From an uncultured Bacteroidia bacterium (GTDB lineage: Bacteria > Bacteroidota > Bacteroidia > Bacteroidales > F082): 45,035 bases of DNA. Where the stretch lies: assembly GCA_902769875.1 (NCBI GenBank), contig CACXQV010000015.1, positions 1 through 45,035 of the forward strand. Reading direction: 5' to 3'. The notes beneath the pieces are model-generated. The model made no database searches, had not been told where the DNA came from, and saw only the letters and a list, made by a program, of their open reading frames with translations. Within the stretch, counting starts at the first letter, position 1. Each line of letters starts with the position of its first letter. A program made the position numbers and the translations under genes. This document shows, one piece after another, positions 2,596-11,594 of the stretch.

Positions 2596-2889
2596 TTACA
2601 AATGCCGCCCAAAATCCATCCGCTCGTGGAGGATTCGGACAATTTCCACGCCATCTTCAACGAGAATGTAGAAAATCAAATGCTTGTGAATGTGGTGACC
2701 AAATAGTCCTGGCATAATTTCCTTGTATTCCCTGTCCAAATAGGTAGGGTGATTGGCGACATCTTGACAGGCTTCTACCAACTCATGATAATAAAAGTCC
2801 GCTTGATCTTCCGACCAAGTTTCTTGTGTGTACAACCAAATGGAATCGAGGTCGTCGACGGCTTTGTTGGAAAAATGGAATTTAGCCAT
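2596..2889 (-). CDS. parE: ParE/RelE-family toxin
   Basis: A 97-residue protein with the RelE/ParE superfamily plan: N-terminal FSNKAVDDLDSIWLYT, a helical pair (WSEDQADFYYHELVEACQ), then the beta-rich C-terminal core PGLFGHHIHKHLIFYIL and VEIVRILHERMD, which matches ParE toxins (family members inhibit DNA gyrase). Its start overlaps the end of the upstream antitoxin gene by 8 bp, the usual antitoxin-first order. The target is inferred from the family only. Confidence 0.85.
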   Translation of the reverse strand: MAKFHFSNKAVDDLDSIWLYTQETWSEDQADFYYHELVEACQDVANHPTYLDREYKEIMPGLFGHHIHKHLIFYILVEDGVEIVRILHERMDFGRHL

Positions 2890-3130
2890 TGCGACGGGAG
2901 GCTTTCAGTTGCTTCAAGTGTTCCTCTGGATCAAAGTCCTCACAAATGCCACTATCAAGGCCTTCTTGGATAGCAGCTTTCAAAAGAGCAATTTTCTTTT
3001 CATCCTCCTCCAACCGGCGAAGGCCGGCACGAATGACCTCGCTGGCATTGTTGTATCTGCCGCAGAGGATGCTGTTTTTGATAAACTCCTCATAATGAGG
3101 TCCTAAAGATGCTGTTACTGTCCTACCCAT
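2882..3130 (-). CDS. parD: ParD-family antitoxin (ribbon-helix-helix)
   Basis: An 82-residue protein with a ribbon-helix-helix N-terminus (TVTASLGPHYEEFIKNSI) followed by the near-invariant ParD stretch GRYNNASEVIRAGLRRLEE. The acidic C-terminal tail (residues ~60-78) would wrap the toxin. It is first in the operon, with a Bacteroidetes -7 box at 3156-3163. ParD proteins normally repress their own promoter, so the 3131-3160 region is the likely operator, although I see no clear palindrome there. Confidence 0.88.
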   Translation of the reverse strand: MGRTVTASLGPHYEEFIKNSILCGRYNNASEVIRAGLRRLEEDEKKIALLKAAIQEGLDSGICEDFDPEEHLKQLKASRRNG

Positions 3131-3213: not shown

Positions 3214-3221
3214 TATTTTTG
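3214..3221 (+). promoter_or_regulatory. -7 box (TATTTTTG) for the deiminase gene
   Basis: TATTTTTG fits TAnnTTTG and lies 25 bp before the ATG at 3247, leaving a short leader. Confidence 0.6.
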
Positions 3222-3246: not shown

Positions 3247-5526
3247 ATGAAAAAATCTCTATCAATTTTCACTCTTTTGCTCTTGATGGCCGCCACTGTG
3301 CAAGCCCAAGAGAAGAAACCCGACTGGATGAGATGGCACTATCTCTCCGAGGAAGAAATGTACGACACCTCGCGTGGAATGAACTTCGTCGAGACCGACC
3401 CGCCGGCGGGCGAGCCGCGCTTTGTGGCCGAGTTTGAACCCATGCAGGGCGTGATGATCCGCTACCCCTTGGGCATCCCGACGAGCCTCGTGGCACAGCT
3501 TTCCAACAACTGCATGGTGTATTGCATCGTCAGTAGTGGCTATCAAAACCAAGCCCAAAGCAGTTTCCAAGGTGCAGGCGTCAACATGGACAATGTCACT
3601 TTTGTCAATGCACAGACCGATTCTTACTGGGTGCGCGACTATGGCCCGTGGTACATCTTCGAGGACCGCAACCCCGCCATCGTCGACAACATCTACAACC
3701 GCCCGCGCCCCAACGACGACAACATATCGGGCGTGTTCGCCAACTATTGGAACATCCCAATGTACGGCATGAACCTCCAGCACACCGGAGGCAACATGAT
3801 GGAGGACGGCAGAGGCCACGGCGTGAGCGACGACCTTGTGTTTCAGGAAAACAACAACAACGAGGCTAACGTCCGTGAAAAGATGCGCGACTACCTCGGA
3901 ATCGACCCCTACCACGTCACCATTGACCCGCAAGGCGACTACATCGCCCACGTGGACTGCTGGGGCAAATACCTCGCTCCCGACAAGATCTTGATTGCGC
4001 AACTGCCGCAAAGCAATCCCCGCTACCAATATTATGAAGAAGTGGCCGAATATTTCGAGAACACCAACTGCTGCTGGGGTTATCCCTATCGCGTGTATCG
4101 CGTCCAAGAACCCGGCGGCTACACTTTGGCCCCCTACACCAACAGCCTGATTCTCAACAAGACCGTGTATGTGCCGATGGGCACCAACAATACCTACAAC
4201 CAAGACGCCATTGCCGTTTATCAAGAGGCTATGCCAGGCTATGAAATCGTTGGCGTGAACGGTGGCTCAGCCGGTTGGGAAAACACCGATGCCCTGCACT
4301 GCCGCACCCGTGGCGTGATGGATTTCAATATGCTCTTTGTGGACCACCGCAATGTGCTGCACGGCGAGCAAGAATGGCAGGAATCCATTCCCGTTGTTTC
4401 CAAGTTTATCGCTTACAGCGGTGCCAATTTGAAGCAAGACTCACTCCTTATTTATTATAGCATTGATGGCGGAGCCTACCAAACGGCCCAGATGACCGCC
4501 ACGGGCAATCCTGACGAATATGTAGGTTACATCACAGGCTATCAAGGTGGCTCCGAGATTGACTATTACGTGTTTGGTGCCGACGAATCGGGACACCGCT
4601 ACACGCAGCCCGTCTTCGCCGACCTCGACCCGCACCATTTCACGATGGAGGCGCATCAGCCGGCAGGCGAGTTGGTGATTACACCTGATACGCTGTGGTT
4701 TGAACATAATGGCGACGAACAGGCTTTTACCATCGAAAACCAGACCAACACTGTTGTTCAAATCAACGCCATAACGGAGGAAGGTGGTTATTTGCTTCCT
4801 GGCACTCCCAACCTTCCCTACAACTTGCAAGTTGGGGAATCCATTTCGGTTGGTTTCCTTTTCAGTTTTCCGCTAAAAACGAACCGAGCATCTGATGATT
4901 ATGTTTCAAGTTTGATAAAGGTTCAGACCTCTGTCGGAGAAAAGTTTGTGACCGCTATGATAAGCAAACAAGGGATGGTGAATTTCGTGTACCAAAATGA
5001 AATGTATTTTGATGACCCAACTTTGGTCATTGAATCAAGTTTCTTCAATAAATCTGTTTTTGTTCCTACAATCAGGGTTTTATCCATTGCCGAGAAAGAC
5101 ACTGATTATCTGAATATTGAAACAAACCCCACTCCACCTTTCGATTTGGAATTCGATGGCGATGAGGCCTTTATGTCCGTGAGTTTGAAGGATTTCGCAA
5201 AAGGCTATGTGCAAACAAGCATCGAAATCGAAACGGATTATGGTATCTTTGAGATTGCCGTCCACATTAACGAAGACATTCTCTCTGTCAACGAACTCTC
5301 CTCCGAAGCCAAACTCTACCCCAACCCGACCACGGGCCAATTCACCGTGGAAGGCGCGAATGTGGCCAAAGTGGAGGTGTATAACCTCGTCGGACAGAAA
5401 GTTTGCGAGCAGCAAGGCAGCAAGGTCGTCAACATCAACGCCGCCGAATGGAACAAGGGCATCTATTTGGTCAATATCATTGAACAGAATGGTGCCGTCG
5501 TGACCAAGAAATTGGTGGTGAGATAA
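3247..5526 (+). CDS. Secreted peptidylarginine deiminase (PPAD-like), T9SS substrate
   Basis: Signal peptide at 1-20 (cleavage after VQA). The catalytic domain of the guanidino-group-modifying superfamily covers ~30-365. It contains FEPMQGVMIRYP (63-74), YWVRDYGPW (127-135), NRPRPNDD (151-158), HTGGNMMEDG, AHVDCW (234-239), APYTNS and NTDALHCRTRG. The residues correspond almost number for number to Porphyromonas gingivalis PPAD as I recall it: D131, R152, R154, H235, D237, N299 and C352, against D130, R152, R154, H236, D238, N297 and C351. The two arginines hold the C-terminal carboxylate of peptide substrates and are the PPAD hallmark, so it should convert C-terminal peptidylarginine to citrulline plus ammonia rather than act on agmatine. 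Beta-rich Ig-like segments follow (~385-680). The last ~75 residues are a type A T9SS sorting domain (KLYPNPTTGQF, GIYLVNI, VVTKKLVV). It has 759 residues against ~556 for PPAD; the extra length is between the catalytic and sorting domains. Confidence 0.85.
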   Translation: MKKSLSIFTLLLLMAATVQAQEKKPDWMRWHYLSEEEMYDTSRGMNFVETDPPAGEPRFVAEFEPMQGVMIRYPLGIPTSLVAQLSNNCMVYCIVSSGYQNQAQSSFQGAGVNMDNVTFVNAQTDSYWVRDYGPWYIFEDRNPAIVDNIYNRPRPNDDNISGVFANYWNIPMYGMNLQHTGGNMMEDGRGHGVSDDLVFQENNNNEANVREKMRDYLGIDPYHVTIDPQGDYIAHVDCWGKYLAPDKILIAQLPQSNPRYQYYEEVAEYFENTNCCWGYPYRVYRVQEPGGYTLAPYTNSLILNKTVYVPMGTNNTYNQDAIAVYQEAMPGYEIVGVNGGSAGWENTDALHCRTRGVMDFNMLFVDHRNVLHGEQEWQESIPVVSKFIAYSGANLKQDSLLIYYSIDGGAYQTAQMTATGNPDEYVGYITGYQGGSEIDYYVFGADESGHRYTQPVFADLDPHHFTMEAHQPAGELVITPDTLWFEHNGDEQAFTIENQTNTVVQINAITEEGGYLLPGTPNLPYNLQVGESISVGFLFSFPLKTNRASDDYVSSLIKVQTSVGEKFVTAMISKQGMVNFVYQNEMYFDDPTLVIESSFFNKSVFVPTIRVLSIAEKDTDYLNIETNPTPPFDLEFDGDEAFMSVSLKDFAKGYVQTSIEIETDYGIFEIAVHINEDILSVNELSSEAKLYPNPTTGQFTVEGANVAKVEVYNLVGQKVCEQQGSKVVNINAAEWNKGIYLVNIIEQNGAVVTKKLVVR

Positions 5527-10580: not shown

Positions 10581-11594
10581 ATGAACTTAAGCGACCAATT
10601 ACTCACTGTGCTTGACGAATACAAGCAACTTGGCATAGCCGAGCAAATCGACTATGACAAGTTCTATTTGTACTCGTTGATTACTCACTCCACGGCCATC
10701 GAAGGCTCGACGGTGACCGAAATCGAGAACCAATTGCTGTTTGACGAAGGCATTTCGGCCAAAGGACGCACGATGCAAGAGCAACTGATGAACCTTGACC
10801 TGAAAAAAGCCTACGAACAGGCCATTCGTTTGGCAAAGTCGCACACAGATTTTTCTGTGGAAATGTTGAAGGATTTGTCGTCAATTGTGATGAAAAACAC
10901 TGGAAGCCAATACAATACCGTTCAAGGCTCTTTTGATGCTTCAAAAGGTGACCTTCGTTTGGTCAATGTCACAGCGGGGGCTGGAGGGAAATCATACCTC
11001 AACTATGCCAAAGTGCCTTCAAAACTGACCACATTCTGTCAAGAAATGAACAAACGCAGAAGGGTCTTGGTGGATAGCAAAGACATATTGGAGCAATATC
11101 TGTTGAGTTTTGATGCACATTTCCAACTCGTTACGATTCATCCTTGGGCGGACGGCAATGGACGAATGTCGCGCCTGATAATGAACTATATACAATTCGA
11201 GTTTGGGCTTGTTCCCACAAAAGTGAAAAAGGAAGACAAAGCAGAGTACATCCAAGCATTGGTCGAATCAAGAGAACAAGACAACACTCTGCCTTTCAGA
11301 GAGTTTATGTTACGGGAACACCATACCAACCTACGGAAGGAAATCGAGAATTTCAAACAGTCGGAAGGTGGACAGAAAACAGAAAAGGTGGACAGAAAAG
11401 GTGGACAGAAAACCCGCGATGCGATACTTGATTTAATCAAGAACGATGAAAGAATCACTTCCACAAAAATGGCAGAATCATTGGGAATCAACCGAAGTGC
11501 GGTCAGCAAACATTTGAAAAAACTGCAAGACGAAGGCGTAATTCGCAGGGAAGGCCCTGACAAAGGCGGCAAATGGATAATTGTAAAACGATGA
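10581..11594 (+). CDS. Fic family AMP transferase with C-terminal winged helix
   Basis: Fic core motif HPWADGNGRMSRL (His187, Asp191, Gly192-Arg195, Arg198) fits HxFx(D/E)GNGRxxR with Trp in place of Phe. An inhibitory-helix motif STAIEG (37-42, Glu41) upstream of the core makes it a self-inhibited class II Fic protein. The FIC fold spans ~80-250. A polar linker built of 13-nt DNA repeats (~262-278) leads to a winged helix at ~280-337 (AILDLIKNDERITSTKMAES, INRSAVSKHLKKLQDEG). The family transfers AMP from ATP to a Ser/Thr/Tyr of a target protein. It lies inside an RND efflux operon, and its stop overlaps the tolC start (ATGA). The target and any DNA-binding role are unknown. Confidence 0.9.
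   Translation: MNLSDQLLTVLDEYKQLGIAEQIDYDKFYLYSLITHSTAIEGSTVTEIENQLLFDEGISAKGRTMQEQLMNLDLKKAYEQAIRLAKSHTDFSVEMLKDLSSIVMKNTGSQYNTVQGSFDASKGDLRLVNVTAGAGGKSYLNYAKVPSKLTTFCQEMNKRRRVLVDSKDILEQYLLSFDAHFQLVTIHPWADGNGRMSRLIMNYIQFEFGLVPTKVKKEDKAEYIQALVESREQDNTLPFREFMLREHHTNLRKEIENFKQSEGGQKTEKVDRKGGQKTRDAILDLIKNDERITSTKMAESLGINRSAVSKHLKKLQDEGVIRREGPDKGGKWIIVKR
11367..11412 (+). repeat. Three 13-nt direct repeats in the Fic linker
   Basis: GGTGGACAGAAAA occurs at 11367-11379, 11387-11399 and 11400-11412. The unit is not a multiple of three, so loss or gain of one copy would shift the frame before the winged helix and before the stop that overlaps tolC. Confidence 0.8.

Follow-up and report, generated by a model that had tools for sequence, protein, structure and literature searches.

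Does an uncultured Bacteroidales bacterium from the herbivore gut encode a secreted peptidylarginine deiminase of the kind known from Porphyromonas (PPAD), and if so, on which substrates would the enzyme act? The question was raised by an open reading frame on the forward strand (positions 3247-5526, ATG start, product of 759 amino acids) of contig CACXQV010000015.1, assembly GCA_902769875.1 (Bacteroidales, F082), of which the analysed stretch of 45,035 nucleotides is referred to here as the window. That this gene is an orthologue of PPAD is well supported by the sequence comparisons described below, and its product is likely a secreted exodeiminase for C-terminal arginines exposed by Arg-gingipain-type peptidases.

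PPAD was still called unique to Porphyromonas (PMC13201384, 2026), P. gulae and P. loveana were named as its other holders (PMC12599369, 2025), and centipede venom peptidylarginine deiminases (PADs) were described as nesting among many bacterial sequences (PMC7864903). Such genes had already been called more widespread than thought in a 2021 paper. The kind of enzyme is already known; what is new here is its distribution and its pairing with Arg-gingipain-type peptidases. No paper on an Arg-gingipain/PPAD pair outside Porphyromonas, or on PPAD in rumen Bacteroidales, was found among the papers searched, as judged by title or the opening of the abstract.

Identity of the deiminase

The PDB was searched with the window protein using phmmer, and PPAD (4yt9) was the best match (2.6e-108, residues 47-467), covering the catalytic and Ig-like domains with 43.8% identity over 409 aligned positions to PPAD of Porphyromonas gingivalis. 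The best entry other than PPAD was 1xkn (9.1e-11), which is titled 'putative peptidyl-arginine deiminase' and which we take to be agmatine-deiminase-like. Pfam models identified PAD_porph (PF04371; residues 80-354, 94 bits versus a cut-off of 25) and Por_Secre_tail (PF18962; residues 690-758, 51 bits versus a cut-off of 27), and the sorting tail also exceeded the curated cut-off of the NCBIfam model TIGR04183. The N-terminus resembles a signal peptide by eye, with Lys-Lys followed by a hydrophobic run and by V-Q-A ahead of Q21, and Ala20 and Gln21 are conserved at 90% or more in a 23-row alignment (A2).

Residue roles in PPAD were taken from PMC4487231 and PMC4893104. In the alignment PPAD residues W127, D130, R152, R154, T180 and G182 corresponded to W128, D131, R152, R154, T180 and G182 of the window protein, and PPAD Y233, H236, D238, C239, N297 and C351 to Y232, H235, D237, C238, N299 and C352. 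The RxR motif is part of the block YNRPRPNDD, which aligns without gaps and has the same letters in PPAD. According to PMC4487231, Tyr233 of PPAD binds the free carboxylate of the substrate, and Tyr233 together with R152 would collide with substrates extended at the C-terminus. Its counterpart Tyr232 is thus the strongest sequence argument for the predicted exo-specificity of the window protein, and was missing from the residue list of an earlier, sequence-only reading of this DNA. That reading had proposed a secreted peptidylarginine deiminase with D131, R152, R154, H235, D237, N299 and C352 in the positions of PPAD, the two arginines included, with a signal peptide and a type IX secretion sorting domain, and about 200 residues longer than PPAD; the alignments, the domain models and inspection of the N-terminus agree with it on each of these points. 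The extra length is accounted for by two poorly conserved segments (residues 468-575 and 576-688) that separate the Ig domain from the sorting tail and for which mean identity to 22 relatives in alignment A2 was 48% and 40%, respectively, as compared with 85% for the catalytic domain. The variable stretch is shorter in other members, for example in L041 (662 amino acids), and the C-terminal part, residues 465-758 with the tail, resembles L002 (31%), a second protein encoded in the window's genome.

The characterised P. gingivalis enzyme (PDB 4yt9, 4ytb, 5ak7, 6i0x) has in common with the window protein its catalytic and Ig-like domains, the catalytic residues, the R152/R154/Tyr lid arrangement and the export tail, and differs from it in sequence and, at what we take to be 556 amino acids, in length. 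The lineages differ as well, the window's being uncultured and from the herbivore gut, with other gene neighbours as far as seen. A chance likeness was excluded because 35 further genome loci carry genes for relatives, at 52-97% identity over the best segment; these loci and the low identity to PPAD itself also led us to reject a stray Porphyromonas contig as the source.

Phylogenetic analysis and residue census

For the phylogenetic analysis the catalytic domains of 90 rows were used in a quick maximum likelihood inference with Shimodaira-Hasegawa-like approximate likelihood ratio test (SH-aLRT) support and without bootstrap. The rows comprised the window protein, P. gingivalis PPAD, eight named members of the window's group, nine lid variants (see below), five rows of group C and 16 outgroup proteins from the same order, the remaining rows being a random draw plus up to four named rows. 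The outgroup is labelled agmatine-deiminase-like because none of its members exceeds the curated agmatine deiminase cut-off; a search for this family returned no protein above that cut-off in 119 genomes. A tree with agmatine deiminases had been named in advance as a check by the sequence-only reading, and it placed the window protein in a 51-row clade that also contains the strong groups and PPAD of P. gingivalis (SH-aLRT 96, starred), separate from the clade of the 16 agmatine-deiminase-like proteins (SH-aLRT 100, starred). The window's own group also formed a clade (SH-aLRT 100, starred). P. gingivalis PPAD was placed among the wider group, where its exact sister is not settled because support was below 95.

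These results bear on the explanation that the protein is an exported agmatine or free-arginine deiminase of polyamine or energy metabolism, sharing with PPAD only a family likeness. The family PF04371 also includes agmatine deiminases, and the window's genome encodes an arginine deiminase relative (L312; PF02274, below the arcA equivalog cut-off), a carbamate kinase above its cut-off and an ornithine carbamoyltransferase, so that citrulline re-entering the cell could be broken down and used; nothing links these three genes to the PPAD gene. Agmatine deiminase (TIGR03380; PDB 2jer) has in common with the window protein the guanidine-modifying fold and the Cys, His, Asn and Asp residues (PMC4487231). 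However, the window protein scored only 43.6 bits against the agmatine deiminase equivalog TIGR03380, far under the cut-off of 381.8, and fell outside the agmatine-deiminase-like clade; it keeps the carboxylate-binding arginines and the lid Tyr, and agmatine lacks a carboxylate; it also carries an Ig domain and an export tail. Identity as an agmatine deiminase was rejected on the score and the tree, and we regard the explanation as a whole as very unlikely. Two further PF04371 proteins were found in the window's genome beside the one PPAD (L010 and L011), both without the clamp arginines in the alignment, and L010 scored 58 bits against the same equivalog, well short of the cut-off.

The residue census covered 214 aligned rows after removal of L001, L009 and L047, which are copies of the window locus, the relatives being taken from among the matches listed for the order-wide PPAD-like search. 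In the window's group, R152 was found in 40 of 40 rows, R154 in 39 (the exception being L045) and Tyr233 (PPAD numbering) in 40, with all three present in 39, and the catalytic D, H, D, N and C were kept in all 40. An enzyme that has become idle, the real gene being retained for a binding or surface protein, would be in keeping with the long variable accessory segment; this conservation, together with the catalytic domain being the best conserved part of the protein, makes it highly improbable, and an inactive enzyme was rejected since the catalytic residues are kept.

The wider PPAD-type group (113 rows) had R152 in 112, R154 in 112 and the Tyr in 104 rows, with all three in 104. The one row not showing the arginines, L195, is a fragment without the stretch that holds them. 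Nine rows (L066, L077-L080, L140, L189, L193, L195) have Ser, Ala, Gly or Thr in place of the Tyr, and eight of these lid variants keep both clamp arginines, the ninth being the fragment. On the tree the lid Tyr label needed six changes, at least three of them forced by starred branches. The lid variants with both arginines are possible natural endodeiminases, judging from their residues, and offer material for asking what restricts such an enzyme to chain ends.

The lid is also what bears on a broader peptidylarginine deiminase, acting on internal arginines too or mainly on surface proteins of its own cell. Human PAD1-4 catalyse the same reaction, share the catalytic residues and have an Arg pair equivalent to that of PPAD, PAD4 having Ser where PPAD has Tyr233 (PMC4487231), and the nine variants show that the lid varies within the family. 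Against this stand the Tyr kept in the window protein and throughout its group and the clash described above for extended substrates, and we consider broader activity unlikely. The human enzymes further differ in acting on internal arginine and in their calcium dependence, and PPAD is described as genetically unrelated to them (PMC4487231). The centipede venom PADs are of the bacterial PAD kind and keep the catalytic residues (PMC7864903); by contrast with them, the window protein keeps the PPAD clamp residues.

Two other sets of relatives were aligned. In the sister or intermediate group L196-L200 (five rows), Gly and Val occupy the two alignment columns where PPAD has the clamp arginines, and the substrate of this group therefore probably differs; the catalytic residues and Cys239 are kept. 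In group D, made up of 53 rows below 250 bits, R152 and R154 are both present in 46 rows, and Gly stands in the Tyr233 column in 41; the group was not read as lid-less because a Tyr stands two positions earlier in most of the 14 rows viewed.

Distribution of PPAD-type proteins

The window's genome (3.5 Mb, 138 contigs) is 82.6% complete and 5.7% contaminated. The genome titles of the 35 further loci name goat, buffalo, deer and horse samples among others, with Candidatus Limimorpha caballi and a Lentimicrobiaceae bacterium among the organisms; RUG-numbered genomes among the relatives are presumably from the rumen. PPAD was found in all four other sampled genomes of the window's genus. In a sample of the order, 143 of 393 genomes matched a catalytic-plus-Ig profile at 1e-20 or below, and the scores fell into two blocks, with a match of at least 340 bits in 108 genomes and only weaker matches in 35. 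The rarity implied by the sequence-only reading, which had placed the characterised bacterial secreted enzymes of this kind in Porphyromonas, does not agree with these 108 genomes. A sample of the phylum contained 27 matching genomes out of 395 at 1e-40, among them the window's genome and four others above 340 bits. PPAD-type enzyme chemistry is therefore probably more widespread than the literature says, and the supposed speciality of a pathogen is likely a common trait of gut Bacteroidales.

Gingipain-type peptidases and co-occurrence

Six C25 peptidases were identified in the window's genome, all on contigs other than the window's. Two of them (L106, L107) had the Arg-gingipain RgpB as best match (2.3e-89 and 5.7e-94) and two the Lys-gingipain Kgp (2.6e-137 and 1.3e-129), and all four carry the C25 propeptide and sorting tail domains. 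The remaining two are PorU sortases (1182 and 990 bits versus a cut-off of 420) that adjoin PorV. Asp163 of RgpB, which we take to line the Arg pocket (S1), was kept in L106 and L107, for which Arg specificity is inferred from sequence, and in all 30 Arg-gingipain-type loci fetched from the search of 40 plus 40 genomes described below. P. gingivalis likewise has both gingipain types in the same genome as PPAD. An M14 peptidase and an ornithine carbamoyltransferase of the window had been noted earlier as present but unlinked; both are real family members and neither is linked to the PPAD gene, for which reason they were set aside as partners, the Arg-gingipain-type peptidases elsewhere in the genome being the more telling ones. 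Within the window's genome one Lys type and one Arg type lie close together on one contig (L308:2851-11939), and the two PorU genes overlap by four bases head to tail beside PorV (L309:1794-9082). In genome G286, of the window's genus, two Arg types and one Lys type stand in a row (L307:3356-13577).

For the statistical comparison a genome was considered PPAD-positive when it had a PPAD-type match of at least 340 bits, and the 35 genomes with weaker matches only were kept out. C25 counts are lower bounds, at most about four candidates being scored per genome. At least three C25 peptidases were counted in 105 of 108 PPAD-positive genomes versus 50 of 250 genomes without a PPAD-like match (50 of the 210 with some C25, plus 40 genomes without C25); the corresponding number among the weaker-hit genomes was 32 of 35. 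With the number of type IX tails in the model, the likelihood ratio was 82.0 for C25 and 15.4 for the tails, and the chi-square stratified by tails was 60.0. In the 15 families that hold both kinds of genome, PPAD-positive members averaged more C25 candidates in 12, fewer in two and an equal number in one; these contrasts and the regression are based on unscored first-look candidates.

The gingipain types were then scored in 40 PPAD-positive and 40 PPAD-negative genomes, each set holding one genome per family and drawn from genomes with 60 or more tail candidates. An Arg-gingipain type (at least 200 bits) was found in 38 of 40 versus 11 of 40 genomes, and a Lys-gingipain type (at least 170 bits) in 39 versus 19. 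When only genomes with a Lys-type match are counted, 38 of 39 PPAD-positive and 10 of 19 PPAD-negative ones also have the Arg type (Fisher 7e-5), so PPAD is associated with the Arg type over and above the Lys type.

Genomic context of PPAD

In six loci (L288-L291, L299, L300) the gene immediately upstream of PPAD, on the same strand, is of the Arg-gingipain type, and its product keeps the pocket Asp in every case. The gaps measure 17, 18, 18, 161, 187 and 391 bases, and are approximate since gene starts were called mechanically at the first ATG. Four of the loci are from genomes of the family of G274 and two from family f119. They come from 19 PPAD neighbourhoods that were fetched, four of which belong to G274's family and were picked because of the linkage in G274. 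A nitroreductase-family gene follows soon after PPAD in two loci of the family with the Arg-gingipain/PPAD pair (L288:6383-7021, L290:10082-10720).

Proposed function

The window protein would be exported to the cell surface or to vesicles by means of its type IX tail. Arg-gingipain-type peptidases of the same genome, themselves type IX cargo, would cut after arginine and so supply the substrate, and the C-terminal arginine of the resulting peptide would be deiminated to C-terminal citrulline and ammonia. This two-step scheme is that of P. gingivalis, in which PPAD prefers C-terminal arginines supplied by Arg-gingipain (PMC4893104), and would here be at work in one of the uncultured Bacteroidales of the herbivore gut. 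As a conjecture, its benefit likely lies in handling peptides and nitrogen or in releasing ammonia locally, more than in attacking a host.

Several observations weigh against the proposed exodeiminase and its partnership. In genomic context, no C25 match was found in the first 16 kb of the window, where PPAD has no gingipain gene beside it. Among the 35 loci a C25 gene is near PPAD only in L042, a member of the window's clade in which a gene of the Lys-gingipain type ends about 200 bases upstream, and the other 34 loci have no Arg-gingipain/PPAD link as far as they reach. By coordinates, only G274 of the 40 PPAD-positive genomes has a C25 gene adjoining PPAD, many of the contigs being short. 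When G274's family is set aside, two of the other 15 neighbourhoods have an Arg-gingipain neighbour, both in one family, and these 15 include G286, G094 and G086, already known to have the Arg type elsewhere. As to co-occurrence, two PPAD-positive genomes (G171, G351) lack an Arg-gingipain-type match and 11 PPAD-negative genomes have one. Type IX tails are a real confounder, with a median of 152 first-look candidates in PPAD-positive genomes versus 53 in PPAD-negative genomes with C25, and of 177 versus 96 in the sets of 40; in the stratum of 40-60 tails the C25 association was not significant (3 of 5 versus 12 of 51). Relatedness was handled only through per-family sampling and the within-family contrasts. 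As to export, a Pfam scan of ten relatives found PAD_porph in all ten and Ig-like or other additions in nine, but a type A sorting tail above its cut-off in only six, the tail of L172 being below the cut-off and L126 having a FlgD-like domain instead. Finally, PPAD is able to deiminate free arginine too (PMC4893104), so peptides need not be the sole substrate.

A wider proposal, possible but short of probable, is that the pair of Arg-gingipain and PPAD is an old, general surface module of the Bacteroidales and not a virulence invention of Porphyromonas, that herbivore-gut carriers constantly make C-terminally citrullinated peptides, and that the lid Tyr has given way to Ser, Ala, Gly or Thr on several occasions, some relatives perhaps being endodeiminases as a result. 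If the proposed function is right, the enzyme and its peptidase partner would be spread through the Bacteroidales and the original role of PPAD would be open to study in commensals; citrulline-ended peptides in an animal or sample could therefore not be read as a mark of P. gingivalis.

Features of the gene and its surroundings

The coordinates of the features read in and around the gene are given in Table 1. The Bacteroidota -7 promoter type is not included in the sigma-70 promoter scan. The terminator-like hairpin is weak evidence because three sites were found in the region when 3.9 were expected in shuffled sequences; with it the gene may stand alone.

Table 1. Positions in the window of the features of the PPAD-type gene and its flanks.
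Feature	Positions	Strand	Basis
Promoter-like TATTTTTG	3214..3221	+	Read by eye against the Bacteroidota -7 consensus TAnnTTTG
Predicted signal peptide, residues 1-20, Gln21 after the likely cleavage site	3247..3306	+	Read from sequence
Putative short pro-segment, residues 21-46	3307..3384	+	Phe47 aligns with residue 2 of the crystallised PPAD chain
Deiminase catalytic domain, residues 47-362	3385..4332	+	PF04371 and PPAD match; end placed by analogy with PPAD
W128 and D131 (PPAD W127, D130)	3628..3639	+	Alignment with PPAD
R152-P-R154, predicted clamp on the substrate C-terminal carboxylate (PPAD R152, R154)	3700..3708	+	Alignment; role from PMC4487231, PMC4893104
Y232, predicted exo-specificity lid (PPAD Y233), with catalytic H235 (H236) and D237 (D238)	3940..3957	+	Alignment; Tyr role from PMC4487231
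N299 (PPAD N297)	4141..4143	+	Alignment with PPAD
C352, predicted catalytic nucleophile (PPAD C351)	4300..4302	+	Alignment with PPAD
Ig-like domain, residues 363-467, counterpart of the PPAD IgSF domain	4333..4647	+	PDB match extends to residue 467; sequence only
Variable stretch, residues 468-688, extra length relative to PPAD	4648..5310	+	Without Pfam match
Type IX secretion C-terminal sorting domain, residues 689-759	5311..5523	+	PF18962, TIGR04183
Terminator-like hairpin past the stop codon	5552..5585	+	Weak; counts in the text

The PPAD gene is flanked on one side by a ParDE toxin-antitoxin pair, directly upstream and divergent (2596-3130, reverse strand), and on the other by an open reading frame of 169 residues without a Pfam match, which is followed by an efflux operon. 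Between the genes for the efflux pump and the outer membrane channel lies a gene for a Fic-domain protein with a winged helix (10581-11594), a relative of which was present in only two of 54 compared neighbourhoods of differing length.

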